Shown here: piece by piece, positions 3,276 through 32,030 of the stretch
How the letters are laid out: every line of letters starts with the position of its first letter
Position numbering within the stretch: the first letter of the stretch is position 1
Assembly (NCBI GenBank): GCA_021769135.1
Contig: JAETTM010000022.1
Coordinates: 1-55,840 of the forward strand
DNA length: 55,840 nucleotides
From: Lachnospiraceae bacterium
Lineage (GTDB): Bacteria; Bacillota; Clostridia; Lachnospirales; Lachnospiraceae
Direction of reading: 5' to 3'
The notes under the pieces: generated by a model
The model's database searches: none
Told to the model about the DNA's origin: nothing
Seen by the model: the letters and a program-made list of their open reading frames with translations, nothing else
Translations under genes and position numbers: made by a program

Positions 3276-3410
3276 AAGTCAACAACCCCGCTGCAAGCAA
3301 CGGGGCATCAAATTTGCAACGCTGCAGAGCAGCGGGGTATTGACCCTCGCGGCATTCGCCAAATGCTCGTGCAAGCACGGCACTTGGCTCATTGCTCGCG
3401 GGAATAAAAA
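3276..3410 (+). repeat. Dispersed structured intergenic repeat, copy A
   Basis: This is the first of four related elements (others at 7748-7815 minus, 9012-9110 plus, 31912-32030 plus). It starts GTCAACAACCCCGCTGC, has a CCCCGCTGC/GCAGCGGGG stem, then TATTGACCCTCGCGGCATTC, then a long hairpin at 3358-3388 (outer GCCAAATGC/GCACTTGGC, inner CGTGC-AA-GCACG), and ends CTCATTGCTCGCGGGAATAA. It fills the gap before the MarR gene and overlaps no convincing gene. Confidence 0.8.
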
Positions 3411-3484
3411 ATGCCGTATATCAAGCATTTTCGGCGTAAAAAGCCAATTGCGCACTAAAGTTTCCAGGCTTTGAAAGGAGTATA

Positions 3485-3925
3485 GTGATAGACATGGAAA
3501 GCAAACAATTCCGCAATGGAGAACTCATCAAACGCATTAATGACAAAGTTGAAAAAACCGTTAATAACAAACTGCTGACCTACGGCCTTACATCCACCCA
3601 GTTCAAAATGCTGGTGACGCTGCATCTAAGCCCTGGCAACACGGCTGCATTGAAAGATTTGGAAAAGTACTTTGGAGTCGCCCAGTCCACGGCAGCCGGC
3701 ATTGCCTCCCGTCTGGAAAAGAAAAAATTAGTGTCTTCCTTCAGCGATGCAAACGATAAGCGTGTCAAACACGTACGGATTACCGATGAGGGCCTTCGCA
3801 TATGCCTGAATGTCAGGGAATCCATAATAGAAACGGAGCATAAGCTTTTTTCCGGGCTGATGCCGGAAGAAGAGGCCGAGCTCAACCGCCTGCTGCACAA
3901 AGTTTACCGTTCCATTAAATCATAA
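3485..3925 (+). CDS. MarR-family transcriptional regulator
   Basis: The protein has 146 residues (143 if ATG 3494 is used). It has a winged helix-turn-helix of MarR type: LTSTQFKMLVTLHLSPG, then VAQSTAAGIASRLEKKKLV with the wing DANDKRVKHVRITDEG. The site GAAAGGAG at 3473-3480 lies 4 bases before GTG 3485 and 13 before ATG 3494, so the start is uncertain. The stop is 22 bases before the ABC exporter gene, so the three genes probably form an operon in which this protein represses the pump until a toxic ligand binds. The ligand cannot be told from sequence. Confidence 0.9.
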   Translation: MIDMESKQFRNGELIKRINDKVEKTVNNKLLTYGLTSTQFKMLVTLHLSPGNTAALKDLEKYFGVAQSTAAGIASRLEKKKLVSSFSDANDKRVKHVRITDEGLRICLNVRESIIETEHKLFSGLMPEEEAELNRLLHKVYRSIKS

Positions 3926-3947
3926 ATAGAAAGGTATGGTGATTGCT

Positions 3948-5693
3948 ATGTTAAAAACACTTTATCAACAAATCGGGGAATATAAAAAGGATTCTTTCCT
4001 GACCCCCGTTTTTACGGCTCTGGAAGTCCTGATGGAAATACTGATACCCTTTGTTACCGCATCCATCATCGACAAAGGGATTGAGGCCGGAAATATACGG
4101 ATGGTCTGCCTGTATGGCGCCATTATGCTCATACTCGCTTTTTTCAGCCTTTTTTTCGGCATTCAGGCCGAACGCTATGCGGCTTCCGCCTCTTCCGGCT
4201 TCGCCTGCAACCTGCGCGAAAGCATGTATGCCAATATTCAGACTTTTTCCTTTTCCAATATTGACAAATACAGCACGGCCGGGCTCGTTACCCGTATGAC
4301 CACAGATGTGACCAATCTGCAGAATGCTTACCAGATGGTCTTGAGGATTGCCGTACGGGCGCCGCTGATGCTGTTGTGCAGCATGTTTATGTGTATCGTC
4401 ATCAACCGGAAGCTCAGTTTGATTTTCCTGTGCGTACTCTTTTTTCTTGCCATCGTCCTTTTTACGATTATGCGCAAAACAATGCCTGTTTTTGACCAGG
4501 TATTCGGGAAATATGATGATTTAAACGCCAGCGTGCAGGAAAATGTCTCCGGCATCCGCGTTGTAAAAGCATTTGTAAGGGAAGATTATGAAAAAACCAA
4601 ATTTTCCAGGGCCTCCGAAAATTTATACCGCCTTTTTGTCAGGGCGGAATCCATGCTGGCCTTTAACAGCCCTATCATGATGCTGTCCATTTATGGCTGT
4701 ATCATCGCCCTGTCCTGGCTGGGGGCGCATTACATTACAGACGGGCTTCTTACCACCGGCAGCCTGACTTCCCTTTTCAGCTATATCATGAGCATGATGA
4801 TGTCGCTCATGATGCTCTCCATGATTTTCGTCATGGTTACCTTAAGCGCCGCCAGCGCCAGGAGGATAGCGGAAGTCCTGGAAGAAAAGGCCGACCTGTC
4901 CAACCCTGACAGCCCGGTAAAAAATATCCCCGACGGGAGCATTGACTTTCATCAGGTCAGCTTTTCTTACCGCAGCGGCAGCGGGGAGGATACCCTCAGC
5001 CATATTGATTTGCATATCGATGCGGGCGAAACCATCGGCATCATCGGCGGTACCGGCTGTGGAAAGTCCAGCTTTGTCAGCCTAATCAGCCGCCTCTATG
5101 ACGTGACGGAAGGCACCGTCTGCGTAGGCGGCCAGGATGTCCGTTCCTATGATATGGACGCGCTCCGGGAACAGGTAGCTGTAGTCCTCCAAAAGAATGT
5201 GCTCTTTTCCGGCACCATTCTGGATAATCTGCGCTGGGGAAAAGAAGACGCTACGGAAGAAGAATGCATGGAAGCCTGCCGCTTGGCATGCGCCGATGAA
5301 TTTATCCAGCGTTTTCCCGACAAATACCATACCTGGATAGAGCAAGGAGGCAGCAATGTATCCGGCGGACAAAAGCAGCGCCTCTGCATCGCCCGCGCCC
5401 TGCTGAAGAACCCTAAAATATTGATTCTCGATGACTCCACCAGCGCCGTGGATACCGCCACCGATGCCAAAATCCGCCAGGCATTTTCCACGAAGATACC
5501 GGGCACTACGAAGCTGATTATCTCCCAGCGAATTTCCAGCGTACAGGATGCGGACCGCATCCTTGTCCTGGAGGATGGCAGGGTGAATGGCTTTGATACC
5601 CACGAAAATCTGCTTCGCTCCAATGCTATTTATCAGGAGATTTACGATGTGCAGATGAAGGGCGGAGGAGACTTCGACCATAAGGCTGGATGA
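3948..5693 (+). CDS. ABC exporter half-transporter, degenerate-site subunit
   Basis: The protein has 581 residues: six membrane helices (about 15-310) followed by a nucleotide-binding domain with Walker A GGTGCGKSS, signature VSGGQKQ and Walker B ILILDDSTSAVD. The residue after Walker B is Asp where active ATPases have Glu, while the signature is canonical. The partner at 5826 shows the opposite pattern, as in heterodimeric exporters such as TM287/288 and BmrCD. ATG 3948 is preceded by GGTGA at 3938-3942; an in-frame ATG lies 12 bases upstream. Drug or lipid export under MarR control is likely, substrate unknown. Confidence 0.9.
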   Translation: MLKTLYQQIGEYKKDSFLTPVFTALEVLMEILIPFVTASIIDKGIEAGNIRMVCLYGAIMLILAFFSLFFGIQAERYAASASSGFACNLRESMYANIQTFSFSNIDKYSTAGLVTRMTTDVTNLQNAYQMVLRIAVRAPLMLLCSMFMCIVINRKLSLIFLCVLFFLAIVLFTIMRKTMPVFDQVFGKYDDLNASVQENVSGIRVVKAFVREDYEKTKFSRASENLYRLFVRAESMLAFNSPIMMLSIYGCIIALSWLGAHYITDGLLTTGSLTSLFSYIMSMMMSLMMLSMIFVMVTLSAASARRIAEVLEEKADLSNPDSPVKNIPDGSIDFHQVSFSYRSGSGEDTLSHIDLHIDAGETIGIIGGTGCGKSSFVSLISRLYDVTEGTVCVGGQDVRSYDMDALREQVAVVLQKNVLFSGTILDNLRWGKEDATEEECMEACRLACADEFIQRFPDKYHTWIEQGGSNVSGGQKQRLCIARALLKNPKILILDDSTSAVDTATDAKIRQAFSTKIPGTTKLIISQRISSVQDADRILVLEDGRVNGFDTHENLLRSNAIYQEIYDVQMKGGGDFDHKAG

Positions 5694-5825
5694 TGTTTTG
5701 GGTTGAGAAAATATTCCAGCAATATTCAGCCAAGGTTATTATTATGGGAAATGAAGCAGGCATCAGTTTTAAGAGATGCGAAGCATATTTGAAGATTTTA
5801 GATAGATAAGAAAGGAGTCTGTTTT

Positions 5826-7736
5826 ATGATGCAACCAAAAAATAAACCGCCTATAGGGAATATGAGAAAGCCGGGCGAGGGGCAGGCCGCTTCCCTGAAA
5901 CGGATGATTGGATATATTCTGAAAAATTATAAGTTTTCCTGCCTTGCGGTAGTTGCCGGGATTTTTATTTCGGTGCTGACCACCCTTTGCGCTACGCTAT
6001 TTATGCAGCGGCTGATTGACGATTATATTTTACCTCTGACCAGGATGGCTATTCCGGATTATGAGCCTCTGGCACAGGCTTTGCTTTCCCTTTCCGCCGT
6101 CCTGTGCGTGGGCATCCTCTGCTCCTATGGGTACAACAGGATTATGGTCAACGTAAGCCAGGGAACGATGAAAAAAATACGTAACGAGTTGTTTTCCAAT
6201 ATGGAATCGCTGCCTATCAAATATTTCGACACCCATGCCCATGGCGACATTATGTCGGTTTATACCAATGATGTGGATACTCTGCGGCAGCTTATTGGCC
6301 AGAGTTTTCCCCAGCTTGTAAATTCCAGCATTACGCTGGTTTCCACATTTATCAGTATGGTGGTGCTGAATATCCCCCTTACTGCCATTTCCCTTTTCAT
6401 GGTTGCCGTTATGCTTTTTACCACATCCAAAATGGGCGGAAAGGCTGCCAGATACTTTATGCAGCAGCAAAGCGACCTGGGCAAGGTCAACGGATACATT
6501 GAAGAAATGATGGAAGGCCAGAAAGTAATAAAAGTATTCTGCCATGAGGAAAAAAGTTTGGAACAGTTCCGGCAGCTGAACCGACAGCTTAGGGAAAGCG
6601 CCAACAATGCAAATAAAATTGCCAATATCACTATGCCGGTGAATGCCAACCTGGGAAATATCAGCTATGTGCTTTGCGCCGTTGCGGGAGCCGCCCTTGC
6701 CTTAAGCGGTTTTTCCGGCCTTACCCTGGGCACCTTGGTGGCCTTCCTGAACCTGAGCAAAAGCTTTACCCAACCTGTGACCCAAATCAGCCAGCAAATT
6801 AACAGCATCGTTATGGCAGGGGCTGGGGCATCCCGCGTCTTCCATATGATGGATGAAGCGCCCGAGGCCGATGAGGGATATGTGGAATTGGTCAATGTAC
6901 GGGAAAATTCCGATGGCTCTTTGACGGAAACGGACGAAAAAACCTATCAATGGGCCTGGAAACATCCCCATAAAGCGGATGGAACTACCACTTATGTCAA
7001 ACTGGAAGGCGATGTTACCTTCGATGGTGTGGACTTCGGTTATGATGAGAAAAAGATGGTGCTGAAAGATATTAAAATGTTCGCTACCCCCGGCCAGAAA
7101 ATTGCCTTTGTAGGGAGCACGGGCGCAGGAAAAACAACTATCACCAACCTGATCAACCGTTTCTACGATATACAGGATGGGAAAATCCGTTATGACGGTA
7201 TCAATATCAACAAAATCAAAAAACCCGACTTGCGCCACAGCTTGGGCATCGTGCTCCAGGATACCCATCTGTTCACCGGTACGGTTATGGAAAATATCCG
7301 TTATGGCCGCCTGGATGCCACGGATAATGAATGCATCGCCGCCGCAAAGCTGGCAAACGCCCACAGCTTCATCAAGCGTCTGCCCAACGGCTACCAGACC
7401 ATGCTCACCGGAGACGGTGCCAACCTAAGCCAGGGGCAGCGCCAGCTGTTAGCCATCGCCCGGGCTGCAGTAGCCGACCCGCCGGTGCTGATTCTGGATG
7501 AAGCCACCTCTTCCATCGATACCCGTACCGAAGCCCTGGTACAAAAGGGCATGGACGCTTTGATGGCCGGCCGTACCTCCTTCGTCATTGCCCACCGCCT
7601 CTCCACCGTCCGCAATTCGGACTGCATCATGGTTATGGAACAAGGGCGCATTATCGAACGGGGCACCCATGACGAGCTGCTTGATGCCAAAGGAAAATAT
7701 TATGAACTTTATACGGGGAATACGATTGGAGCATAG
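5826..7736 (+). CDS. ABC exporter half-transporter, catalytic-Glu subunit
   Basis: The protein has 636 residues with six membrane helices (about 35-330), an insertion of about 50 residues between membrane and ATPase parts (near residues 355-400), then Walker A GSTGAGKTT, signature NLSQGQRQ (LSQGQ instead of LSGGQ), Walker B LILDEATSSID with the catalytic Glu, and the H-loop IAHRLS. It pairs with the subunit encoded upstream so that one ATP site is fully active and the other degenerate. AAAGGAG at 5811-5817 sets the start. The 132-base gap between the two genes has no clear terminator and at most a 21-codon reading frame of doubtful meaning. Confidence 0.92.
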   Translation: MMQPKNKPPIGNMRKPGEGQAASLKRMIGYILKNYKFSCLAVVAGIFISVLTTLCATLFMQRLIDDYILPLTRMAIPDYEPLAQALLSLSAVLCVGILCSYGYNRIMVNVSQGTMKKIRNELFSNMESLPIKYFDTHAHGDIMSVYTNDVDTLRQLIGQSFPQLVNSSITLVSTFISMVVLNIPLTAISLFMVAVMLFTTSKMGGKAARYFMQQQSDLGKVNGYIEEMMEGQKVIKVFCHEEKSLEQFRQLNRQLRESANNANKIANITMPVNANLGNISYVLCAVAGAALALSGFSGLTLGTLVAFLNLSKSFTQPVTQISQQINSIVMAGAGASRVFHMMDEAPEADEGYVELVNVRENSDGSLTETDEKTYQWAWKHPHKADGTTTYVKLEGDVTFDGVDFGYDEKKMVLKDIKMFATPGQKIAFVGSTGAGKTTITNLINRFYDIQDGKIRYDGININKIKKPDLRHSLGIVLQDTHLFTGTVMENIRYGRLDATDNECIAAAKLANAHSFIKRLPNGYQTMLTGDGANLSQGQRQLLAIARAAVADPPVLILDEATSSIDTRTEALVQKGMDALMAGRTSFVIAHRLSTVRNSDCIMVMEQGRIIERGTHDELLDAKGKYYELYTGNTIGA

Positions 7737-7747
7737 CCATATGTTCA

Positions 7748-7815
7748 TCCCTGCAGGCCACGAGCCAAGTGTGCAATGCTTAGCATCTCTGCACATTTGG
7801 CGGTTGCCGCATGGA
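7748..7815 (-). repeat. Dispersed structured intergenic repeat, copy D (partial, inverted)
   Basis: Read on the minus strand this contains GCGGCAACCGCCAAATG, matching GCGGCATTCGCCAAATG of copy A, and ends CACTTGGCTCGTGG. The hairpin is complete (7764-7801): GCCAAATGTGCA pairs with TGCACACTTGGC with the same single A-C mismatch as in the other copies, and the inner stem is ATGCT-A-AGCAT. The CCCCGCTGC part is missing. Confidence 0.7.
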
Positions 7816-7855
7816 TACTCCCATATCAGGGAATCGTTTTAAATCCGCCAATATC

Positions 7856-8119
7856 CTATGCATGCCGAAAACTTGTCGGCCCGTTCTTTCCTATAATTAT
7901 CTTTTCCACCTTTTCCAGCGTTCCCGATGCTTCCTCTGCCAATTCCCTGCTTAATGCTACCTGAAAAGAAACCGAAAGCATTGTTGCATACTTAGAACCG
8001 TCCACATTCTCATACACCGTCACCTTATAGTTCCCGTTCCCATTTTGCACAAAGCATAAAAAAATACGCTTCCCCTGGAGCTTCCTATCAGTTCCTGGAC
8101 CTCCATAGGAGAATCCCAT
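7856..8119 (-). pseudogene. Hypothetical frame, probably the 3' part of a frame-shifted gene
   Basis: The 87-residue frame (central part KRIFLCFVQNGNGNYKVTVY, then a helix SRELAEEASGTLEKVEKIII) looks like real protein but has no ribosome binding site and is preceded directly by an in-frame stop. A second frame just upstream (8229 down to about 8060 on the minus strand) reads YSGVHYCAKNRELVDWDISV and EWDSPMEVQELIG, which also looks like protein and could join this frame by a one-base shift near a run of seven T residues. That second frame overlaps the end of the MerR gene. I do not recognise the family. Confidence 0.4.
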
Positions 8120-8930
8120 TCCAAATTAACCAAGGCATCATCATCATGCACACTAATATCCCAATCCACCAATTCCCGATTCTTGGCACAATAATGAACG
8201 CCGCTATAAAAACAAAAATCGCATATCTGTTAACCATCCGGTAAATTTTCCTTTTCCTCGGCGATATTCCGGCTTCTTCCACCCGTTCAGGATGGGTCAT
8301 CCTACAGCGGACGACTGCCCCCATGCGGCTAAATGCCCGGTCCGCCGTATACTCTATCCCATCCATTTCAAAAACTGGATACATCCCCGGCTTTGTTATC
8401 ACCAGCCTTACGCCCTTCTCCTTTGCGTATTCCAAAAGCGCTTCCGAAAATTCCTCCGGGCTCATAACCATAGAATTGGGCACGAAGTTAAATTCTTTCA
8501 TCGACTCTTCCCTGCTTACCGCCTTATAATCGTTCACAATCGACATAAATATACCTCCCTTCCTTTCCTCTTCCTCCATTTGTTCCAGTACCTTTTCCGT
8601 ATCCAGCGTCTCCAGGCTGGCATCGCACAGCTTGCGGCAGATGTGGATACATGTCTCCAGCTCATCCTGTTTTGCCCGCAGCACGTCCAAATGCTGCTTT
8701 ACCGCCGCATCCAATTCCACTTCCTTTTGGAGAATCTTATGGATATCTTCGATGGACATGTCCAGCTTTCTGAGTATTTTTACCACTTCCAGCGTTTTCA
8801 CATCCTCTTCCACATATTCGCGGTAATTATTTCCTTCATTCCTCCTCGGGCTTAAAAGGCCTTTCCTCTCATAGAAACGGATATTCTGTTTCGTAATGCC
8901 TGTGCGATGTTCCAATTCCTTGATATTCAT
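8088..8930 (-). CDS. MerR-family regulator with C-terminal membrane segments
   Basis: The N-terminus (MNIKELEHRTGI, then QNIRFYERKGLLSP and YREYVEEDVKTL) is a MerR winged helix, followed by a dimer helix with a CIHICRKLC stretch. The middle (ITKPGMYPVFEMDGIEYTAD) is shared with DUF-type MerR proteins, and the end has two predicted membrane helices (YAIFVFIAAFIIVP; WWIGILVCMMMMPWLI). A membrane-tied MerR suggests sensing of envelope state or drugs. Start 8930 gives the standard MerR N-terminus; an in-frame ATG at 8942 belongs to the recurrent double-start motif. The promoter at 8966-8996 has the 19-bp MerR spacer. The last 30 codons overlap another plausible frame, so the C-terminus is less certain. 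Confidence 0.82.
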   Translation of the reverse strand: MNIKELEHRTGITKQNIRFYERKGLLSPRRNEGNNYREYVEEDVKTLEVVKILRKLDMSIEDIHKILQKEVELDAAVKQHLDVLRAKQDELETCIHICRKLCDASLETLDTEKVLEQMEEEERKGGIFMSIVNDYKAVSREESMKEFNFVPNSMVMSPEEFSEALLEYAKEKGVRLVITKPGMYPVFEMDGIEYTADRAFSRMGAVVRCRMTHPERVEEAGISPRKRKIYRMVNRYAIFVFIAAFIIVPRIGNWWIGILVCMMMMPWLIWNGILLWRSRN

Positions 8931-8965
8931 TTCAATTACCATTCCCTTTCCGAAAGCTTACATTC

Positions 8966-8996
8966 AATATATAGGATATACCAGGTATAAGGTCAA
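8966..8996 (-). promoter_or_regulatory. MerR-type promoter with 19-bp spacer
   Basis: On the minus strand TTGACC (complement of 8991-8996) and TATATT (complement of 8966-8971) are separated by 19 bp. The dyad ATACC-T-GGTAT (8978-8988) lies inside the spacer. This mirrors the promoter at 485-515 and points to autoregulation by the MerR protein encoded downstream. Confidence 0.78.
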
Positions 8997-9011
8997 GAAG
9001 ATTTTTAAAAT

Positions 9012-9110
9012 AAACAACCCCGCTGCCAAGCAGCGGGGTATTGACCCTCGCGGCATTCGCCAAATATACGCGCAAGCGCGTCTACTTGGCTCATTGCCCA
9101 CGGAAATAAA
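9012..9110 (+). repeat. Dispersed structured intergenic repeat, copy B
   Basis: The most compact copy. Stem 1 is CCCCGCTG (9018-9025) with CAGCGGGG (9031-9038). Then TATTGACCCTCGCGGCATTC, and the hairpin 9059-9090 with outer GCCAAAT/ACTTGGC and inner CGCGC-AA-GCGCG. Compared with copy A the inner stem has changed on both sides (CGTGC/GCACG to CGCGC/GCGCG), keeping pairing. Confidence 0.8.
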
Positions 9111-9158
9111 TGCCTTAAGTCAAAGAATGCAAAAAAAGAAACACAAAGGCCCTCAGCC

Positions 9159-9845
9159 TTAACCCACCTTATATCCGGTTCCCCATACGACTTTCAGGTA
9201 ATGGGGTTCCTTTGGATTGCGCTCGATTTTTTCCCTAATATGCCTGATATGTACCGCAATCGTATTGTCTGCCCCAATGGCCTGCATGTTCCAAATGGAT
9301 TCATAAATCTGATTAATGGAAAACACCCTTCCCCTTTCCTGTACCAGCAGGCGAAGAATCTTATATTCAATAGGCGTAAGGTTGACCTCCTTCCCCGACA
9401 CCGTCACCTTTCTGAGCACATCGTTCATTACCAAATCATCCACCCTGTAAATCCTGTCTATATTATCGCGCACATTCACCAGCTGGATATAACGCCTGAA
9501 CTGGCAGTTAATCCTTGCCATAAATTCCAGGGGGTGAAACGGATAAATCACATAATCGTCCGCCCCCGCATTCAACGCCGCTATTTTCATCTGTTCCCGG
9601 TCATTGGCTGAAAGTACGATAATCGGCATCCTGTCGGTATTCCTAATCGCTTTAAGGCGTTCCACCCCGTCATTTTTCGGGAAGTCGATGTCCATCACCA
9701 CTAGGTGGATATCCTTCTGCCCTACCCTGCGGATTACATCGTCCAACTTGCTGACCACATATACCTGATAGCCTTCCTGGGCAAGAAAAATCTTTAGCAC
9801 TTCCATGTTGGTTTCGTTTTGGTTATAGATTAATACATTTTTCAT
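9159..9845 (-). CDS. OmpR/PhoB-type response regulator with degenerate receiver pocket
   Basis: The protein has 228 residues: a receiver domain (1-120) and a winged-helix output domain (about 130-228, VNLTPIEYKILRLLVQERGR and WGTGYKVG). The phosphate acceptor Asp52 (VVMDIDFP) and Ser79 are kept, but the acidic pair near residues 8-9 is Asn-Gln (IYNQNE) and the invariant Lys is Tyr101 (DDYVIYPF). Receivers lacking these residues usually cannot bind Mg2+ or switch normally. No histidine kinase gene is adjacent. The DNA-binding half looks intact, so it may act without phosphorylation. GAGGAGG precedes the ATG. Confidence 0.9.
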   Translation of the reverse strand: MKNVLIYNQNETNMEVLKIFLAQEGYQVYVVSKLDDVIRRVGQKDIHLVVMDIDFPKNDGVERLKAIRNTDRMPIIVLSANDREQMKIAALNAGADDYVIYPFHPLEFMARINCQFRRYIQLVNVRDNIDRIYRVDDLVMNDVLRKVTVSGKEVNLTPIEYKILRLLVQERGRVFSINQIYESIWNMQAIGADNTIAVHIRHIREKIERNPKEPHYLKVVWGTGYKVG

Positions 9846-9940
9846 CCGTTTTCCTCCTCTCGTAACGCTTAAACCCTCAATCTATTATCCCCGTTCCTCT
9901 TGACCATAACGGTTAACCCGGCCCATCCCGGACCGCCGCT

Positions 9941-10828
9941 TTATTCGTATTCGCTTAAATCAATACTCTCTATCATTTTTTTTGCTTCCTCTTCCGTATA
10001 TCCCATAAAATCAATATAGGTCTCATAGGTTCCTACGGTAACTGCCCCGTGAATCTGGAGCGCTTCCTCATCATTTTCTCTCACCGAATCCACCAATGTG
10101 TACGTATAACCCTGGGCCGTGGTATATGCCCTTTCATTGCATACGCCTCCGGGAAATACCTTTGAGGATGCATGTCCCTGGGTATCGGCATAATCCGTGC
10201 GTTCTACCCAAACCACTTTTCCTTCCATATCATACCGGGCCATGGCCCAGTTCCCGCAAATTGTAATGTCTACCGTTTCCGCGCCCCCGCTCAATATTAT
10301 AGACGGCTGCGGGAAAATAATATCTTCATTTTCTTCGAATTCTTCCAAAGAATTATAGTTCTTTACCGGTATATCTTCTATCTCCAATTCCTCTATCGCC
10401 CCCTTTTCCGATACCCGTTCCCCTTCTTCCGCCAGCTGCGCCATCTTGCTTTCCATATCTTCTTCCACGCTGTCCAATGTTCCGGCCTCTGCCGTTTCCG
10501 GATCGATCCCCAATTCTTCCGAAATAATATGGGTCTGGGTATCCTCCGCCTCATTTCTCGCCATAGTAACCGCATCCGCAGATTCAAATCCCCATTGGTT
10601 TACCCTTATTACATTTTCAATATATTCCGCAGCCTTTACCGTTCCAAAACCACACAGAAAAATAACACAGGCCGCTGAAAATGCCGAGGCCGCCGTCCTT
10701 TTCAGCCTTCTGGCCCTAAAACGGTTATGGCCCCTTACATCCATACACTGAGAAGCATCTATATGGAATTCTTTTTCGCCCAGCATATCGTTGACCGCCG
10801 ATTGATAGCATTCTTTGAAATCATTCAT
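9941..10828 (-). CDS. Anti-sigma-factor-like membrane protein (DUF4367 type)
   Basis: The protein has 295 residues with a cytoplasmic N-terminus (1-45), one membrane helix (TAASAFSAACVIFLCGFGTV, about 46-65) and an outside domain rich in acidic residues. The C-terminus, with YTTAQGYTYTLVDS and a final helix EEEAKKMIESIDLSEY, fits DUF4367, often found beside ECF sigma genes. Its start overlaps the end of the sigma gene by 8 bases, so the two are translationally coupled. It most likely holds the sigma factor inactive at the membrane until an envelope signal arrives; a classic zinc anti-sigma motif is not visible. Confidence 0.8.
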   Translation of the reverse strand: MNDFKECYQSAVNDMLGEKEFHIDASQCMDVRGHNRFRARRLKRTAASAFSAACVIFLCGFGTVKAAEYIENVIRVNQWGFESADAVTMARNEAEDTQTHIISEELGIDPETAEAGTLDSVEEDMESKMAQLAEEGERVSEKGAIEELEIEDIPVKNYNSLEEFEENEDIIFPQPSIILSGGAETVDITICGNWAMARYDMEGKVVWVERTDYADTQGHASSKVFPGGVCNERAYTTAQGYTYTLVDSVRENDEEALQIHGAVTVGTYETYIDFMGYTEEEAKKMIESIDLSEYE

Positions 10829-11438: not shown

Positions 11439-11594
11439 ATGTACTGTCTCTCATTTTCGTAATTTTTATCTGTCAACCTTTATTTCATGTCCTCTATATA
11501 GTAATATCCCATATAAAGTATAAATACTGCAAAAAATTATATTATTTTTTTCTTATTTTTATATATAAAATCTTTGGAAAAAAGGAATGGGAAA

Positions 11595-11624: not shown

Positions 11625-11688
11625 CTGTCCTCTCTATTATTAGACGCATTAAGAAGGGAAAAAGTTTCATAAAATCGAATTTAAATCT

Positions 11689-21755: not shown

Positions 21756-21764
21756 CGCGGCATT

Positions 21765-24191: not shown

Positions 24192-24225
24192 AGCAATGCC
24201 AAAACCCTTTCGTTATATTTTACGC

Positions 24226-25047: not shown

Positions 25048-25081
25048 ATTAATAACCATGCCCTTTCTGCAGCCTGCCGAC

Positions 25082-25186
25082 ATGCATGCTCGCCCGCATG
25101 CATTGTACAGGCACAATATTTACAAGGCGAATCCGCCCTTCTCCCAATCCGCACGCAACGGTTCGGCCTTCGGCTTCCCTGTTGCG
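25082..25186 (-). promoter_or_regulatory. Structured intercistronic region between the two permease genes
   Basis: Three hairpins can be read: ATGCATGC-TCGCCC-GCATGCAT (25082-25103), GGCG-AATC-CGCC (25126-25137), and CGCAAC...GTTGCG (25154-25159 with 25181-25186) enclosing GCC-TTC-GGC. No run of T follows, so they are more likely RNA stabilisers or processing sites that separate expression of the two cistrons than terminators. Confidence 0.5.
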
Positions 25187-25202
25187 GAATCTGACCATCC
25201 TT

Positions 25203-26081
25203 TTATTCCTCATTCCCAGACACCCGGAATGACAGCCAGGTGAATATTGCGGTAATGATAAACAGGACAAAGGACAATGCGGATGCGTAGCCAAAATTAT
25301 ATTTTACAAAGGCTTCATCATAAATAATATAGGAAGAAAGGTAAGTTGCCGTTCCCGGGCCGCCCTCCGTCATGATTAATATCTGCACATAAGCCTGGAT
25401 ATAGGAAATGATGGAAGTGATGACCACAAACAACGTCATGGATTTTAGCAAGGGCAAAGTGATGTACCTGAAGTTCTGCCAGGCATTGGCGCCGTCTACC
25501 TTTGCGGCTTCCAAAGCATCCGCCGGAAGGGAATACAGGCCTGCCATATACATAACTACCGCATAACCGAAATCCTTCCAGATAGTCATGACAATTACCG
25601 CCGCCAGCGCGGTCTTCGGGTTCATCAGCCAGTTCACATCCAGCCCGAACATCTGGTTTATCGTGCCAATCTGCGGATTGTACATGAATTTCCAGACGAA
25701 AGCCACCGCCACCATAGGCGTTACTACCGGCATGTAAAAAACGGAACGGAAAAAGCTTTTATATTTAATCAGCGCCGAATAGATGGCATAAGCGATGGCC
25801 AGGCCCAAACCTACTCGGAAAATAATAACTACCACCGAAAAAATAATGGTATTCCACAGGGATTTCCAAAACAACGGGTTGACAATCACTTCCTTATAGT
25901 TCTCCAACCCCAGGAAGCGGTAAGTACCGCTCAAAGGGTTCCACTCATGAAAGCTTCCCGCGAAGGCAATCCCTATGGGAATAATGAGAAACACACTGAA
26001 AAACAACACCATCGCAACTACTACGATATCCCTTAAAATAATCTCACTTTTGCTCTGCAAAGGGTGTGATTTCTTAAACAT
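25203..26081 (-). CDS. Sugar ABC transporter permease, MalF type
   Basis: The protein has 292 residues with six membrane helices. The EAA loop is DALEAAKVDGANAWQNFRYI (about residues 190-210). The N-terminus is cytoplasmic and basic (MFKKSHPLQSKSE). With the MalG-type partner it forms the membrane pore of a carbohydrate uptake system (CUT1 type). GGGAGG precedes the ATG, and the gene begins 36 bases after the binding-protein gene. No ATPase gene is in the operon. Confidence 0.93.
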   Translation of the reverse strand: MFKKSHPLQSKSEIILRDIVVVAMVLFFSVFLIIPIGIAFAGSFHEWNPLSGTYRFLGLENYKEVIVNPLFWKSLWNTIIFSVVVIIFRVGLGLAIAYAIYSALIKYKSFFRSVFYMPVVTPMVAVAFVWKFMYNPQIGTINQMFGLDVNWLMNPKTALAAVIVMTIWKDFGYAVVMYMAGLYSLPADALEAAKVDGANAWQNFRYITLPLLKSMTLFVVITSIISYIQAYVQILIMTEGGPGTATYLSSYIIYDEAFVKYNFGYASALSFVLFIITAIFTWLSFRVSGNEE

Positions 26082-26116
26082 AGGTTTATCCCTCCCTTGT
26101 TTTTAAGTTTCAGCTG

Positions 26117-27490
26117 TTATTTTGCATATTTGTACAGGCTCTCCACTGATTCAAAGGTACTGCTCTTCATATCGCGGATAATGGATTCCTGCGCTTCGTT
26201 CAGCGCGGTATCGATATCCACCCCATTAAAGAAAACGTCCTGTCCTGCCTTCTTTAAGGATGTTTCCATCGTGGAAGGCATCGGGCCCGGCCAGATATAG
26301 TGGTCGATATGGTCTGCCAGAATGCTCAGGGAAGGATTCTGCATTACCTGCTCGTTGTCCGCCAGAGATTTCTTTGCCGGGAATGTGCTCATCGCCATGT
26401 TAAAGGCAATCTGGGCTTCATCGTTTGCCAGGAAATATTTTACGAAATCCTGCGCCACCGCCTGCTGCTCCGCCGGGGCATTCTTATTGATACCAAAGGT
26501 GGATTCGCCGTTATAACGGTTATATGCATAAGGTTCCCCGTCAAAGGTAGGAATTTCGAAAACGCCGAAATTAATGTCCGTCCATGTCGTATTCAAAGTA
26601 TTGTAATAGTGGCCCCACTGGATAACCATGGCCGACTGGCCCTGTCCAAAGCTGTCAGCGCCCTTTTCCCCGAAATCTTTGGAGCCTACGCCGTCCACTT
26701 CATACATATCTACCAGCATCTGCATAATCTTTTTCATGTTGTCCGTATTCACGTTGGGAGTTCTCCCGTCTTCCTGGAACAGATTGTCGCCCAGCTGATA
26801 ATTCAAACCAAGCAGATAATTCTGATGGAAGTCATCATTGAAGTTCAGGCCTGCCTGCACCAATCTGTCGCCATCTTTGATGGTAAGCTTCTTCGCCACT
26901 TCCCTCATTTCATCCCATGTCTTAGGGATATCGTTCTCGGTAAGGCCTGCCGCTTCCCACATATCCTTATTGTAATATACGGAACCGGTCATCATTCCAT
27001 AGTCGATATAGTAAACTTTTCCGTCAATCACATGAGCCTCCACGCCTGTGAAATCTGCTTCCAGGTCTTCCAGCGGGATATCCAGGGGCGCCAGATAATT
27101 AATCAAATTCTCATGGTAGCTGTTATGTACATTGAAAATTGCCGGCCCGTTCTCGCCGTCCAAAGCCAGGGGAAGCTTCGTCCAGTAATCCTCCCACGGG
27201 TTATTCACCAGCTTAATCGTTACATTGGGATGAATCGCCTGATAACCATCGATTACCTGCTGGAACAATTCGTCGCTGCCCCACTCCCAAAGTTCCACGG
27301 TAATATCCTTGCCATCGTTAATCGCTACGCTGGGGTCATATTTCACCGTATCCCCGAAAGGCTCCGTAGGCACGTTTGCGCTAGCCGCTCCGTCATCGCC
27401 GCCCCCTGTCTGTGCGCCGGAACCGCATCCGGCCAATGCTGTCGCTGCAATTACTGCCGCCATAATTGTGGTTAAGACTTTTTTCTTCAT
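26117..27490 (-). CDS. Sugar ABC transporter substrate-binding lipoprotein
   Basis: The protein has 457 residues. A lipoprotein signal is clear (MKKKVLTTIMAAVIAATALA followed by GCGSG; lipidated Cys at about 22). The mature part is a family 1 extracellular solute-binding protein (ITVELWEWGSDELFQQVIDGY, ADSFGQGQSAMVIQWGHY). It captures an oligosaccharide outside the cell for the two permeases; with GH31 in the operon the ligand is probably an alpha-glucoside. The promoter upstream carries a LacI-type operator in its spacer. Confidence 0.93.
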   Translation of the reverse strand: MKKKVLTTIMAAVIAATALAGCGSGAQTGGGDDGAASANVPTEPFGDTVKYDPSVAINDGKDITVELWEWGSDELFQQVIDGYQAIHPNVTIKLVNNPWEDYWTKLPLALDGENGPAIFNVHNSYHENLINYLAPLDIPLEDLEADFTGVEAHVIDGKVYYIDYGMMTGSVYYNKDMWEAAGLTENDIPKTWDEMREVAKKLTIKDGDRLVQAGLNFNDDFHQNYLLGLNYQLGDNLFQEDGRTPNVNTDNMKKIMQMLVDMYEVDGVGSKDFGEKGADSFGQGQSAMVIQWGHYYNTLNTTWTDINFGVFEIPTFDGEPYAYNRYNGESTFGINKNAPAEQQAVAQDFVKYFLANDEAQIAFNMAMSTFPAKKSLADNEQVMQNPSLSILADHIDHYIWPGPMPSTMETSLKKAGQDVFFNGVDIDTALNEAQESIIRDMKSSTFESVESLYKYAK

Positions 27491-27564
27491 AACTCTTACC
27501 TCCGATTTTTAGTTGATATGTATTTGCGCTTCACCTTATTGCTTTCTACCGCTCCGTTTCGCTC

Positions 27565-27594
27565 CGTATAGTTTAGCGCTAAACTTATTATCAA
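27565..27594 (-). promoter_or_regulatory. Promoter with LacI-type operator for the GH31/ABC operon
   Basis: On the minus strand TTGATA (complement of 27589-27594) and TATACG (complement of 27565-27570) are 18 bp apart, and nearly the whole spacer is the perfect palindrome AGTTTAGCGCTAAACT (27570-27585). A repressor bound there would block polymerase. The divergent LacI gene at 27808 is the natural candidate. The rest of the 317-base gap is AT-rich, with TATAAT-like boxes for the LacI gene near 27725-27740. Confidence 0.8.
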
Positions 27595-27807
27595 CTTATC
27601 ACATATACATAAATTCGTCAATATGAAATTTGATTTTTTCCATTATTAACAATTTCTTCTTCCGTTTTTTGTATATTATATCTAAATTTTGAGCATTAAT
27701 TCTCATTGCTTTTTCTTTTTCCCTAATATATAATATTTATAAAGGAATGTTCGATAAGTTTATAAATCTTAACGGCATCATTTTTTTATAGAAAGGGCAA
27801 CAATCAT

Positions 27808-28830
27808 ATGGAAAAAATGACTTTGAAAGATATCGCTGATAAAGCCGGAGTCAGCATGATGACGGTTTCCAATGTAATCAATGGAAAAAGCAGCCGTGTT
27901 TCCCCCCAGACGGCGGATAAGATAAATGCAATTATAAAAGACTGCGGCTATGTGCCCAACTTAAGCGCACGCAGCCTCACCCGCAAAAGCTCCAATATTA
28001 TCGGGGTAATCATTTCCGTGGATACTTATGAAGAAAATTCTCTGGAAAACCCATACATCAGCACAATGCTGGGCATTATTGAACGGGAACTTTGCAAAAA
28101 CGGCTATTATATGATGCTCCGTTCCGTGGCCCGGGAAAGCGACGTTTCCCAGTTTTTGAAAAACTGGAATGTGGATGGGATTATTTTTCTCTTCCCTAAT
28201 TTTTTGGAATACGCCAAAGAGTTTATCGTTAAACCTTCTTGTCCTTTTGTGGTTTTCGATACTTCTCTTCAGATACCCAAAATCATCAATGTCTGTTCCG
28301 ATGACCGGAAAGGGCTGTACCTTTCCACCAAATATATGGTGAACCGGGGGCACAGCCATATCGCCTTTGTGGCCAACTATCGGGATAACTATCTCCTGAC
28401 CCAGCGTTTCCTTGGGTATAAGATGGCCCTGGAGGAATGCGGCATCCCCTTCCGGGAAGAATATGTGCTCACCGATATCCCTTCCTACGAAGGCGGGCTG
28501 GCCGCCGGGAAAAAAATCGCCGCCATGAACGAGGGAATCACCGCCGTGGCCACCACTGCAGATATCTGTGCCATAGGGATTATGGAAGGGGCGCGCCTGG
28601 GCGGGCTGCGCGTTCCCATTGATTTGTCCGTTATCGGCTACGATGATTTGAGCCTGTGCCAGTTCACCATGCCCAAGCTCACCTCCGTTTCACAGAATGT
28701 GGAGTTAAAAGCCCAGACAGCCACCAGGCTTCTCCTGGAAAAAATTCTGGCCGGCAATGATGACGAACCCCGCCAGGTTACTTTGGATGTGGAAATTGTG
28801 GAAAGGCAGTCGGTGATTTCGTTGTTTTGA
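27808..28830 (+). CDS. LacI-family regulator of the GH31/ABC operon
   Basis: The protein has 340 residues. The N-terminal helix-turn-helix is MTLKDIADKAGVSMMTVSNV followed by the hinge (SARSLTRKSSNIIGVI); the rest is a periplasmic-binding-like sensor fold ending in DVEIVERQSVISLF. LacI proteins bind palindromes with a central CG and let go on binding sugar. The gene is divergent from the transporter operon, whose promoter contains GTTTAGCGCTAAAC. Its 3' end meets the alarmone synthetase gene tail to tail with one base between and no terminator that I can see. Confidence 0.92.
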   Translation: MEKMTLKDIADKAGVSMMTVSNVINGKSSRVSPQTADKINAIIKDCGYVPNLSARSLTRKSSNIIGVIISVDTYEENSLENPYISTMLGIIERELCKNGYYMMLRSVARESDVSQFLKNWNVDGIIFLFPNFLEYAKEFIVKPSCPFVVFDTSLQIPKIINVCSDDRKGLYLSTKYMVNRGHSHIAFVANYRDNYLLTQRFLGYKMALEECGIPFREEYVLTDIPSYEGGLAAGKKIAAMNEGITAVATTADICAIGIMEGARLGGLRVPIDLSVIGYDDLSLCQFTMPKLTSVSQNVELKAQTATRLLLEKILAGNDDEPRQVTLDVEIVERQSVISLF

Positions 28831-28831
28831 C

Positions 28832-29527
28832 TCATTCCTCCTCAATCTTCTCCCTAATCTGCTGCATCCTCCCATCCAGCTGCGCAATCAGTTCCGCGCA
28901 GTAAAAAAGCTCGTTGGAGATGCTTTCCGCCTTCTTAATGTGCTTCTTGTATTTCAGCTTATGCTCCAGGCTGGCCCAGAAATCCATAGCTATGGTGCGG
29001 AACTGCACTTCCACCCTCATGGGCTTTTTCTCGTCCGTCAAAAATATGGGCACTTCCAGAATCAGATGCAGGCTCCGGTAACCGTTCGGCTTAGGATTTT
29101 TTATGTAATCCTTTTTGGCAATCAGCTTAATATCGTCCTGGGCCAGCAGACAGTCCGCGAGCATATATATATCGTCGGGAAAAGAACAAATCACACGGAC
29201 TCCCGCGATATCGTTCAAATTGTTTTCCGCATTTTCCACCGTAAGCGGCAAATGATTCCTTTCCAACTTCTCCAATATACTCCTCGGCGATTTAATCCGG
29301 CATTTAATCGTCTCAAAGGGATTCCTGGAAGTCTGCAGGGAAAGCTCCGCATTCAGCACATCCAGCTTCGTTTTCACTTCCAGCATGGCGCACTGATACC
29401 GCATAATCATCCGCCGGAATTTGGCAATCTCCCCTCCCCCCTGAAAAGCCTCTTCTATAATCTTCCAATCTCTTACGTCCTTAATATCTTCCGCTTGATT
29501 CATATCGTTTTCCATTCTAACCCTCAT
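28832..29527 (-). CDS. Small alarmone synthetase (RelA/SpoT domain GTP pyrophosphokinase)
   Basis: The protein has about 231 residues, the size of stand-alone synthetases such as RelQ/YjbM, with no hydrolase domain. Motifs: CRIKSPRSILEKLER, NLNDIAGVRVICSFPDD, KPNGYRSLHLILEVP and VEVQFRTIAMDFW, which hold the ATP and GTP sites. It makes (p)ppGpp and slows growth under stress. ATG 29527 has AAGGAAAG upstream; a GTG nine bases earlier is possible. A perfect 12-bp hairpin lies 46 bases upstream. Confidence 0.92.
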   Translation of the reverse strand: MRVRMENDMNQAEDIKDVRDWKIIEEAFQGGGEIAKFRRMIMRYQCAMLEVKTKLDVLNAELSLQTSRNPFETIKCRIKSPRSILEKLERNHLPLTVENAENNLNDIAGVRVICSFPDDIYMLADCLLAQDDIKLIAKKDYIKNPKPNGYRSLHLILEVPIFLTDEKKPMRVEVQFRTIAMDFWASLEHKLKYKKHIKKAESISNELFYCAELIAQLDGRMQQIREKIEEE

Positions 29528-29572
29528 TTCTGCCACTTTCCTTATCTTTGGCTTTTTGGTATGTTTTCAGAT

Positions 29573-29605
29573 ATCAAAAGCCCTTCCATGGGCAGGGCTT
29601 TTGAT
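29573..29605 (-). promoter_or_regulatory. Perfect 12-bp hairpin upstream of the alarmone synthetase gene
   Basis: ATCAAAAGCCCT (29573-29584) pairs perfectly with AGGGCTTTTGAT (29594-29605). On the minus strand no long T-run follows, so it may be a leader structure; on the plus strand it is followed by ACCGG. The neighbouring SASP gene has its own terminator just before it. Confidence 0.6.
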
Positions 29606-29632
29606 ACCGGCCTCCCTAAAAACAACCCGCCT

Positions 29633-29659
29633 GTTTCCAGACGGGTTGCCTTTTTTACT
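29633..29659 (-). terminator. Terminator of the SASP gene
   Basis: On the minus strand CAACCCGTCTG pairs with CAGGCGGGTTG (one mismatch) and is followed by TTTTTA. It begins within ten bases of the SASP stop codon. Confidence 0.85.
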
Positions 29660-29662
29660 TTG

Positions 29663-29863
29663 TTATTTCATCTGCTCTTCCTGCTTCTTAATCATCCTAC
29701 GAACCATTTCGCCGCCGATAGATCCTGCTTCCTTAGAAGTCAAGTCACCATTGTAACCTTCCTTCAGGTTTACGCCTAATTCAGAAGCAACCTCTGTCTT
29801 GAAACGATCCATAGCTGCCTTAGCTTCAGGAACTTCTACTCTATTAGATTTGCTGCTTGCCAT
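29663..29863 (-). CDS. Alpha/beta-type small acid-soluble spore protein
   Basis: The protein has 66 residues. It shows the GPR protease recognition site (RFKTEVASELG, about residues 21-31) and the conserved DNA-binding second helix (YNGDLTSKEAGSIGGEMVRR). These proteins coat spore DNA, shift it towards the A form and protect it from UV and heat; they are then degraded at germination. A GGAGG site precedes the ATG. It is monocistronic. Transcription in the forespore by sigma G is expected for the family, but I did not find a clean sigma G promoter; a long hairpin lies upstream. Confidence 0.96.
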   Translation of the reverse strand: MASSKSNRVEVPEAKAAMDRFKTEVASELGVNLKEGYNGDLTSKEAGSIGGEMVRRMIKKQEEQMK

Positions 29864-29906
29864 CCTAATTCACCTCCAATTTCGTCTTTCTAGCTTTCGC
29901 TATCTA

Positions 29907-29949
29907 TATTCGAGATAAGCAACCTCAATTCTTATGCTTATCCCGAATA
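29907..29949 (-). promoter_or_regulatory. 14-bp stem-loop upstream of the SASP gene
   Basis: TATTCGAGATAAGC (29907-29920) pairs with GCTTATCCCGAATA (29936-29949) with a single G-U pair and a 15-base loop. It lies 44-86 bases before the SASP start, either in the leader or across the promoter. The rest of the gap up to 30066 holds nothing I can name. Confidence 0.55.
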
Positions 29950-30066
29950 CTTGATGTCTCATGCATCCGTTCTAAGCCAGAACCGAATCACTTATCTTGA
30001 TGTTAGTATTTACGAAGCTGAACGAAATATTAAGGTAAGTTTTACCAAGCAAAAAATAAATTCAGA

Positions 30067-30492
30067 TCAAACAAATACCGCCTCTTTTATCCCGCATTTT
30101 CTGGATAAATATTGAATTACATCTTTTCTTGTAATAATACCTATAAAGCAATCGCTGTCATCAATAACAGGAACGAAATTCTGGTTCATAATCTTGCTTA
30201 TCAAATCTTCGATATTTGCATCCGCCTCCACAGGCTCATTGTCCCGTTTCCTCTTTACATCCATGATAGGCATATCCTCAGCCTCGTTCAAACTCAAGTC
30301 ATACTGCTCCTTCACTTCCCACAGCAAATCCCCTTCTGTTATCGTTCCCAGATATGTTCCATCCAAATGGTCTATAATAGGAACCTCCGTATATTTATTA
30401 TATTCCATTTTTTCCAGCGTCTGCCCCAACGAGTCATTGTCATAAATATAAGTAACTTCGCTTTTCGGTGTTAAAAAAAATAATATGTTCAT
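30067..30492 (-). CDS. CBS-domain protein
   Basis: The protein has 141 residues consisting of a pair of CBS domains (EVTYIYDNDSLGQTLEKMEY and NQNFVPVIDDSDCFIGIITR). CBS pairs bind adenine nucleotides and act as energy sensors. AAGGAG 6-7 bases upstream favours ATG 30492 over the frame's earlier ATG. The N-terminus (MNILFFLTPKSEV) is typical of stand-alone acetoin-utilisation-like CBS proteins. It follows the DJ-1-like gene so closely (stop at 30504) that they are probably cotranscribed. Partner unknown. Confidence 0.88.
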   Translation of the reverse strand: MNILFFLTPKSEVTYIYDNDSLGQTLEKMEYNKYTEVPIIDHLDGTYLGTITEGDLLWEVKEQYDLSLNEAEDMPIMDVKRKRDNEPVEADANIEDLISKIMNQNFVPVIDDSDCFIGIITRKDVIQYLSRKCGIKEAVFV

Positions 30493-30503
30493 GGACTGCT
30501 CCT

Positions 30504-31064
30504 TCATTTTTTAAAATGGCCGTAAACAACTTTATCCGCCAATGCCGCCGCTGCTTCTTCCCCCTTGAATTTCTCCACAATGGCAAGTCCGAAATCCACA
30601 GCGCATCCCATTCCCCTGCCCGTGATGATAAAGTCAGAAGTTTCCGCCGGATTTTTGGTCACTTCCGCCCCTTCCAGATGGCTTTCAAACTCCGGGAAGC
30701 AGCACGCCTTCCTTCCTCTCAGCATGCCTCTGTGGCCGAAAATACTTGGGGCTGCGCAGATGGCACCCAGCAGCTTCTTTTCCCCGTAAAAGGCATCCAC
30801 CTTCTCCATCAGCGGCCCGAACGCCTCCAGATTCTTCGTTCCCGGCATTCCTCCCGGCAAGACAATCATATCCACCTGACCAAAATCCACTTCGTCAAAC
30901 AGCTTGTCCATCTGCACGGTTACCCCATGGGAGCTGGTCGCCTGACGCTCCTTTGTAATGGATACCATATCCGTTTCAATCCCTGCCCTCCTGAGCAGGT
31001 CTACCACAGTCAGCGCCTCAATCTCCTCGTACCCCGGCGCGAAAAACACACATACTTTATTCAT
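30504..31064 (-). CDS. DJ-1/PfpI family protein
   Basis: The protein has 186 residues with the DJ-1 flavodoxin-like fold: N-terminal VCVFFAPGYEEIEALTVVDL with the conserved Glu, and the nucleophile elbow GAICAAPSIFG with the reactive Cys (about 103). Bacterial members include YajL/ThiJ-like chaperones, glyoxalases and deglycases; some roles are disputed. The family form ending HFKK is common in Clostridia. It is paired with the CBS-domain gene downstream. Confidence 0.9.
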   Translation of the reverse strand: MNKVCVFFAPGYEEIEALTVVDLLRRAGIETDMVSITKERQATSSHGVTVQMDKLFDEVDFGQVDMIVLPGGMPGTKNLEAFGPLMEKVDAFYGEKKLLGAICAAPSIFGHRGMLRGRKACCFPEFESHLEGAEVTKNPAETSDFIITGRGMGCAVDFGLAIVEKFKGEEAAAALADKVVYGHFKK

Positions 31065-31231
31065 TTTATTCCTCTCATTCTGCCGTATTATGCGGCTGTT
31101 TTTTCTTCATTTTTTCCATTTCCAACCGGAAATTTTTTTCCGCTTTTTTATACTCTTATTTTACCACTTTATAGGGGATTTTAAAAGGAAATAAATCTTA
31201 TAACAGTATTAAAAAAGAATAAATCGGGGTG

Positions 31232-31300
31232 TTGCATTCTTTTATGTTTTTGGTAGAATATAAAACAGAAAACACTCGGGCAGAGGCCCTCCTGTTTTCT
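31232..31300 (+). promoter_or_regulatory. Promoter and leader hairpin before the CYTH gene
   Basis: TTGCAT (31232-31237) and TAGAAT (31254-31259) are 16 bp apart. Just after them AGAAAACA (31267-31274) pairs with TGTTTTCT (31293-31300), enclosing a GGGC-AGAG-GCCC stem. The hairpin therefore lies in the leader, 115 bases before the gene. The rest of the 31065-31414 gap shows nothing else I can name. Confidence 0.55.
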
Positions 31301-31414
31301 ATTGTCTTGATTCCATGGCACAAAAGGGCTTTTCACAGACTATATGGCCAGAATATTCAGCCAGGGCCATTGATGCCGCAATTATCCTAAAGAGGAATGA
31401 AAAGGGAGGCAGAT

Positions 31415-31912
31415 ATGGAAATTGAAAGAAAATATACGATAAAAGAATTGCCCGCCAATCTTGGCAGCTATGAATGCCATCATATTGAGCAGGCTTATCT
31501 GAATACGGAGCCGGTCATCCGCATCCGGAAGCAGGACGAGGAATATTATCTGACTTATAAAGGGAAAGGGCTGCTAGCAAGGGAAGAGTACAATCTCCCC
31601 CTTAATGCGGCAGCCTATTATCATCTTCGGGAAAAAGCGGATGGCAATATCATTTCCAAAACCAGGTATCTGATTCCCCTGGGAAAGCCGGAATTTTCCT
31701 CCGCCGCTTCCCTCTCGCCGGAAGAGCTGGGTGCATCTTTGAAAATCGAACTGGATATATTCCATGAGCCCTTCCGCCCCCTTATTATTGCAGAAGTGGA
31801 GTTTCCTACTGAGGCCGCCGCCAACGCCTTCCTCCCCCCTTCATGGCTGGATGAAGACGTTACCTTCGATTACCATTATCATAATTCCTATTTAAGCCAG
31901 CAGAAGCCATAA
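31415..31912 (+). CDS. CYTH-domain protein (triphosphate tunnel enzyme family)
   Basis: The protein has 165 residues and opens with the EIERKYTIKELP signature (ExExK) of CYTH proteins, followed by the alternating charged beta strands of a tunnel fold (VIRIRKQDEEYYLTYKGKG; ISKTRYLIPL; LKIELDIFHEP; IAEVEFPTE). Family members hydrolyse inorganic triphosphate or thiamine triphosphate, or make cAMP in rare cases. AAAGGGAGG precedes ATG 31415. Repeat copy C begins at its stop codon. Substrate not determined. Confidence 0.92.
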   Translation: MEIERKYTIKELPANLGSYECHHIEQAYLNTEPVIRIRKQDEEYYLTYKGKGLLAREEYNLPLNAAAYYHLREKADGNIISKTRYLIPLGKPEFSSAASLSPEELGASLKIELDIFHEPFRPLIIAEVEFPTEAAANAFLPPSWLDEDVTFDYHYHNSYLSQQKP

Positions 31913-32030
31913 AGTCAACAACCCCGCTGCAAGCAACGGGGTATTGACCCCTCGCCGGGGCGGCATCTCCTCTTCTGCGAAGAGCAGATAAGCCTCGCGG
32001 CACTTGGCTCATTGCTCGCGGGAATAAAAG
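31912..32030 (+). repeat. Dispersed structured intergenic repeat, copy C (variant hairpin)
   Basis: It starts AAGTCAACAACCCCGCTGC and ends CACTTGGCTCATTGCTCGCG then GGAATAAAA, as in copy A, but the middle differs: CCCC-TCGC-CGGGG and CTCTTC-TGC-GAAGAG stems replace the usual GCCAAATGC arm. It starts at the stop codon of the CYTH gene and reaches to within 70 bases of the malQ stop. Confidence 0.78.

Follow-up and report, generated by a model that had tools for sequence, protein, structure and literature searches.

A tiny gene-free element of Lachnospiraceae that seems to insert as single-stranded DNA during replication

Introduction

The closest described systems to the element reported here are the insertion sequences (IS) of the IS200/IS605 family and their end-only relatives. 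As set out in the available passages of PMC7290912, palindrome-associated transposable elements (PATEs) contain no open reading frame (ORF), have a hairpin near each end but lack terminal inverted repeats, insert 3′ of a short T-rich target and are presumably mobilized in trans. Repetitive extragenic palindromic (REP) sequences and REPINs, which go with REP-associated tyrosine transposases (RAYTs), are in the available part of PMC6006769 short, mostly intergenic hairpins with a tetranucleotide just 5′ of the foot, a high copy number and a Y1 transposase expected to act in trans; the title of PMC3733652 gives the REP tags as GTAG or CGTC. The same part of PMC6006769 covers the target logic, guide geometry and lagging-strand bias of IS608 and ISDra2. 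Here we describe a repeated intergenic element that resembles all of these, starting from four copies in a window of 55,840 nt (the whole stretch of DNA analysed; contig JAETTM010000022.1, positions 1-55,840 of the forward strand) of the Lachnospiraceae bacterium assembly GCA_021769135.1. Its features match the IS200/IS605 descriptions in the passages of PMC6006769 and PMC7290912 at hand.

The element is tiny and gene-free, and its insertion apparently takes place in single-stranded form in the course of replication. Among the titles and abstract openings retrieved we found none that describes it, and a term search of PMC3733652 returned no Clostridia terms. Single-strand transposition of this kind is known; the interest lies in the breadth of the family, its readable ends and the missing enzyme.

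Results

Four places in the window belong to one family

We call the strand first described, which ends ..AATAAA, the top strand, and its complement the active strand; the right domain of the top strand is thus the left-end domain of the active strand, and the top-strand left hairpin is the active-strand right-end hairpin. A covariance model of the top-strand right domain (R1) was built from 87 copies. Run on the window with no filters, it marks four places at 94.1, 89.2, 40.9 and 37.5 bits (E 2e-31, 1e-29, 5e-12 and 8e-11), and the next independent place, neither a copy nor the reverse strand of one, scores 14.0 bits. Copies A and C (L001, L026) score high by construction because both are rows of the R1 alignment; copy D and the place at 7748 are not rows. 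The four related intergenic elements of the initial annotation are therefore members of one repeat family, a mobile element of about 100-130 bp without an ORF and without terminal inverted repeats. Their parts are as follows.

3277..3402, plus strand: copy A, a full-length two-module element (AGTCAAC...GCTCGCGGG), placed by R1, BLAST and sequence
3403..3408, plus strand: AATAAA after copy A (minus strand TTTATT), presumed from the empty sites of other copies to be target DNA
3277..3282, minus strand: putative right-end cleavage site TTGACT in copy A, a proposed role
3340..3344, minus strand: putative right guide GTCAA of copy A, pairing with the right-end TTGAC, from fold and covariation
3358..3388, minus strand: putative left-end hairpin GCCAAG...TTGGC of copy A with a conserved A-C mismatch, from alignment and fold
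3389..3392, minus strand: putative left guide ATGA of copy A, unpaired and just 5′ of the hairpin foot, its role proposed
7744..7816, minus strand: diverged solitary right half, placed by R1; the next word is GATGAA, not AATNAA
about 9009..9104, plus strand: copy C, with a single left hairpin and a degenerate left end (AATAAAC), placed by R1
9105..9110, plus strand: AATAAA after copy C; AAATAA also stands in the element-free relative G002, where the right flank aligns poorly
31913..32022, plus strand: copy D, with the inner hairpin deleted and an alternative hairpin module, placed by R1
32023..32028, plus strand: AATAAA after copy D, from sequence

Copies A and D extend further left than first drawn, to AGTCAA, and the terminal AATAAA of the earlier boundaries is most likely target DNA and not element. 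Copy D begins directly after the stop codon at 31910-31912. Among 200 shuffles none folded as well as copies A and C, and two as well as the 7748 place (z -7.6, -5.0 and -3.2); the fold of copy D is less clear, with 6/200 shuffles as good and z -2.3. This fourth copy had been read as swapping the outer arm for two other hairpins; the arm is lost rather than swapped, with ..GCGGCA joined directly to CTTGG.., and another hairpin module, also present in L157 and L159, does stand there.

The window yields only tRNAs in Rfam at the gathering score; six tRNA genes form a cluster at 44308-44888 on the minus strand. HEARO (RF02033) gave a weak full-length match to copy A (17.5 bits and E 0.11 when 261 bases were searched, against a gathering score of 83), did not appear in equal-sized searches of two other full-length copies, and was missing at E 5 from a larger 18-source search in which such a score would hardly be visible. 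Far below gathering and unrepeated in the two other copies, this match is taken as chance.

The target is used on one side only

At unrelated sites full copies start with A[A/G]TCAA and finish with ..GG[G/A] on the top strand, and the left-end motif was intact in 37 of 40 copies from six genomes, read by eye. Near-identical copies are found at unrelated loci. We searched the joined flanks of 31 copies from the genome of the window (4.43 Mb in 152 contigs; G000, here the own genome) in 16 genomes of the genus, and 18 sites were aligned with relatives. Two are cleanly empty, in three relatives: the counterpart of L018 in G001 (L161) reads TACTATA/AATAATG, and those of L157 in G012 (L167) and G015 (L179) read CCTCC/AATAAAATT, the slash marking the junction. 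On rechecking with joined flanks, the alignment runs straight through. Since AATAA is present without the element at both sites, it is target DNA, not element, and lies on one side only. Target-site duplications, which the initial annotation had suggested looking for, were absent from the clean empty sites beyond one ambiguous A.

Other sites are less complete. The left flank of copy C aligns with L214 (G002) up to AAATAA and poorly beyond, and was counted as partial; L005 keeps AATAAAG on the right side relative to L216, with a left side that cannot be aligned; and L171, a relative of L018, carries other sequence at the site. The target rule fits the joined copies: L005/L160 looks like one copy that entered at the AATAAA next to another, and in L106 the AATCAA left end of one copy directly follows another copy. 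AATNA follows 31/34 own-genome copies, 86/103 copies from named genomes and 40/40 from the six genomes, a tally that is partly circular in that profile and model include these positions and the 40 were picked among top R1 matches. Among the 17 named-genome copies that lack it, 5 have AAAAAG or AAAAGG at this place and form a subfamily.

In G001 the L157 target site is occupied by a different element copy (L168) with an internal short-repeat array (TTATGCAT...), and a TwoAYGGAY RNA (L161:676-837) lies near the empty L018 site. The hairpin subfamily mentioned above shares the core and has another 3′ end, for example CACGCAAAAAGG instead of CGCGGGAATAAA (L080, L081, L092, L098, L116, L138, L139, L145, L090, L069). 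By eye, its L081 member lies upstream of genes forming a cluster that has a ParA-like ORF beside a lysS-like ORF, and its L145 member directly before a ParA-like ORF.

Both hairpin domains carry compensatory changes

In the right domain of the top strand (87 rows) 96.4% of cells are paired versus 91.4% in shuffles, with 93 double-change cells versus 24.9; in the left hairpin of 27 single-hairpin copies 90.0% are paired versus 78.7%, with 32 double-change cells versus 9.9, including pairs of the end TTGAC with the guide, and all such comparisons are to be read knowing that related rows may beat these shuffles without any structure. When the alignments are slid by 1-3 columns, pairing drops to 28-40% in the right domain and 31-48% in the left hairpin, and RNAalifold gives similar structures. 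The covariation that first drew attention to the element thus holds in both domains. The A-C mismatch is likewise kept family-wide across the 87 sequences (A at least 90% conserved, C invariant).

The ATGA of the active strand, nearly invariant in the alignment as top-strand TCAT, stays unpaired immediately 5′ of the hairpin foot, both in the consensus structure and when copies A and C are folded as DNA (centroid). Folded as DNA, the active strand of copy A leaves TTTATT free at the 5′ end and ATGA free before the GCCAAG hairpin (centroid), and its GTCAA pairs with the 3′-end TTGAC. Between the two folded forms suggested earlier, RNA or single-strand DNA, the latter is favoured; the data can be explained without a processed RNA. 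In L029, L030 and further own-genome matches 82-92 nt long the inner hairpin region is enlarged, in L029 by an extra hairpin.

The family is widespread in Lachnospiraceae

The covariance-model scan called for at the outset gave 63 R1 matches at E 0.001 or better in the own genome, a few of which are joined copies, pieces at contig edges or a single place matched on its two strands; BLAST with copy A as query finds 42 places there, 5 left-only pieces among them. A 100-base composite matched 15/41 genomes of relatives (own genome included), and R1 matched 130 of 299 genomes drawn from Lachnospiraceae, counted as sampled genera. The highest number of R1 matches is 112, in G135, with 59 in G133 and 23 in G296. 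Among the matches listed for the exact core pattern, named records are mostly Lachnospiraceae or genera usually placed there, and the few other taxon labels may be binning errors. An exact-pattern scan of viral contigs found none; plasmids gave no match and phages two records, both partial. Four own-genome contigs (C14, C26, C91, C93) begin inside an element copy; therefore, the repeat probably breaks the assembly. By eye, copies in L272, L253, L255 and L275 apparently lie within terminator-like inverted repeats and split them, and in G069 a Clostridiales-1 RNA of Rfam (122 bits; L283:102-255) lies directly beside a copy.

Copies favour the lagging-strand template

If insertion is of the IS200/IS605 type, the active strand should be found in the lagging-strand template, the G-rich strand. 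GC skew, computed for three genomes over 20 stretches of 20 kb apiece, shows clear switch points. Among the matches listed, the active strand is on the G-rich strand in 56/75 copies of the G135 main contig, 16/17 of G296 and 37/49 of the G133 main contig, altogether 109 of 141 listed copies (44 of 194 matches lie outside those listed, and nine listed matches on other contigs were dropped). The G-rich strand has fewer intergenic TT[T/G]ATT words than the other strand (244 vs 331 over 60 stretches), so the bias is not accounted for by the supply of targets.

No Y1, Y2 or RAYT-like gene evidently follows the copy number

We compared a high-copy set of 28 genomes (12 or more R1 matches each, own genome excluded) with a zero-copy set of 14. 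Y1 (PF01797) was found in 21/28 and 9/14, respectively, in drafts that may miss genes, and Y2_Tnp in 4/28 and 3/14. The own genome has no Y2_Tnp, no match to the RAYT-like query and two Y1 places, one with an in-frame TAG and one partial, beside which R1 finds nothing. Both are on other contigs, so the earlier remark that no transposase is nearby stands for Y1, the ORFs of the window itself not having been domain-searched. Within the genus Y1 occurs in 13/16 genomes, and G001, G005 and G012 carry element copies without a detected Y1.

RAYT-like Y1 proteins of about 250-285 aa occur in several genomes of the family (L332:2893-3672 minus; L334). In G135 about 280 bp separate an element copy from a RAYT-like gene, whose 259-aa protein comes close to NCBIfam REP_Tyr_transpos (72.6 bits against a cut-off of 80); no copy was found near the relative of this gene in G069, and this single proximity is not far from chance. 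No association of Y1, Y2 or RAYT-like genes with high copy number is evident. Among ORFs left of right-half-only matches, which were not domain-searched, none read by eye was evidently part of a larger copy with an ORF between its ends.

Discussion

The explanation we favour, and hold to be somewhat better than an even bet, is a single-strand DNA transposon, non-autonomous and working in the manner of the end-only IS200/IS605 relatives, PATEs and REP/REPIN. We infer its mechanism from anatomy and strand bias. The active strand would read 5'-T[T/G]ATT^CCCGCGAGCA-ATGA-[left hairpin]...GTCAA-[right hairpin]-TTGA[C/T]T^-3', with carets at the proposed cuts. An HUH tyrosine transposase acting in trans would bind the lagging-strand template at the hairpins; the target T[T/G]ATT (that of ISDra2 is TTGAT) would be read by the ATGA immediately 5′ of the left hairpin, and the TTGA[C/T]T end of the element itself by the GTCAA 5′ of the right hairpin. 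The excised single strand would then close into a circle and insert 3′ of a further T[T/G]ATT. One-sided target use, mostly intact ends, fold with covariation and strand bias are directly supported; enzyme, cleavage and excision are the proposed parts.

Several points weigh against this explanation. The left-end domain exceeds a plain IS200/IS605 hairpin in size. No Y1 was detected in 7/28 high-copy genomes, one of them a single contig, and five of these seven (G016, G088, G098, G197, G296) have neither Y1 nor Y2. At 60 Y1 loci, part of the Y1 places found in the own genome, the genus and the high- and zero-copy sets, no convincing element-like ends were seen (best R1 match 11.4 bits, E 0.81). 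A RAYT-like protein occurs in 11/49 genomes, among them 7/28 high-copy (two weak) and 4/14 zero-copy ones. The 5′-truncated copy L158 is collinear with the empty L209 (G001), which reads GCTG-TAAAGG where the own genome has GCCGTAATAAAAG; a truncated insertion is unexpected for a two-ended mechanism, and the absence of AATAA from the relative gives the target rule no support there. Fourteen others of the 18 aligned sites yielded no clean empty site (L001, L002, L004, L005, L006, L014, L019, L028, L029, L030, L151, L153, L154 and D). Gene orientation is confounded with replication strand (261/317 sampled G135 ORFs are on the G-rich strand) and could be the source of the bias; of 10 copies with one co-directed and one opposed neighbouring gene, 8 remain on the G-rich strand, which is no more than suggestive and excludes the orientation effect only in part. 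Finally, in the available text of PMC7290912 the IS605 copies of the organism described there show no strand preference, with 10/22 on the leading strand.

The five high-copy genomes with neither Y1 nor Y2, including G098, are the basis for a variant that we regard as unlikely yet worth keeping in view, a family-wide single-strand mobile element whose enzyme belongs to neither the known Y1 nor the known Y2 transposases. Five of the eight G098 copies read are near-identical and therefore recent. A transfer of rolling-circle type, in which another HUH enzyme (Y2/IS91-type, a relaxase or the Rep of a conjugative element) nicks T[T/G]ATT and hairpin relatives on integrative elements would be its natural substrate, is in our judgement distinctly unlikely. 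The one-sided target, the hairpins, the seven high-copy genomes without detected Y1 and the related hairpins seen by eye near ParA-like ORFs (upstream of the cluster in L081, directly before the ORF in L145) would all suit it, but Y2_Tnp is in only a few genomes of both sets and absent from the own genome (relaxases and Rep proteins were not searched), and 37 of 40 left ends are intact.

Those intact left ends are also why RNA-mediated insertion is ranked lower. Here a transcript ending AAUAAA would be primed on nicked TTTATT and copied by a host reverse transcriptase, making the element a bacterial counterpart of short interspersed nuclear elements. The constant 3′ end, several 5′-truncated own-genome copies and the collinearity of L158 with L209 are what such a process would leave, whereas the 5 left-only pieces of the own genome are not, and we think the process improbable. 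That selection maintains the copies at gene ends as an immobile structure, a cis-acting RNA or something like a terminator, is very hard to credit: strong intergenic folds and the four copies seen by eye within terminator-like inverted repeats (L253, L255, L272, L275) fit it, but near-identical copies at unrelated loci and joined copies do not, and the clean empty orthologous sites largely refute it. IS607- or IS110-type insertion was set aside by reasoning only, as no shared core dinucleotide flanks the empty sites.

Returning to the favoured single-strand transposon, the element shares with PATEs and IS200/IS605 insertion 3′ of a fixed tetra- or pentanucleotide without terminal inverted repeats or target-site duplication (two clean sites and the AATNA tally, with L158 against), the bias towards the lagging-strand template, with the orientation effect only partly excluded, and hairpins near both ends with candidate guides just 5′ of their feet, as read from the folds, the covariation and the unpaired ATGA, whose guide role is proposed. 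It differs from IS200/IS605 in encoding no transposase, and by eye the Y1 IS copies of G008 and G011 have unlike ends; from PATEs in lacking a matching autonomous IS at the 60 Y1 loci, in its larger structured left domain and in its occurrence in 130/299 sampled genera; and from REP/REPIN in that its tetranucleotide on the active strand is ATGA, not GTAG or CGTC, and that no RAYT resides in its own genome. Because neither ends shared with an autonomous IS nor a REP tag was found when tested, we do not file the element as a member of either group. The initial suggestion of a miniature inverted-repeat (MITE-) or REP-like element survives in its second half, as a REP-like element with a folded single-strand DNA form; a classical DDE MITE does not agree with ends AGTCAAC.. 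and ..CGCGGG that form no inverted repeats and leave no duplication.

The element also raises the question of what moves it in genomes without a detected Y1 gene. The copies at contig starts bear on genome assembly as well. Altogether, these data describe a very widespread ORF-less mobile element in a major family of gut bacteria, with candidate guide and cleavage sequences readable at both ends, so that guide-target pairing and lagging-strand insertion become testable across many natural copies.

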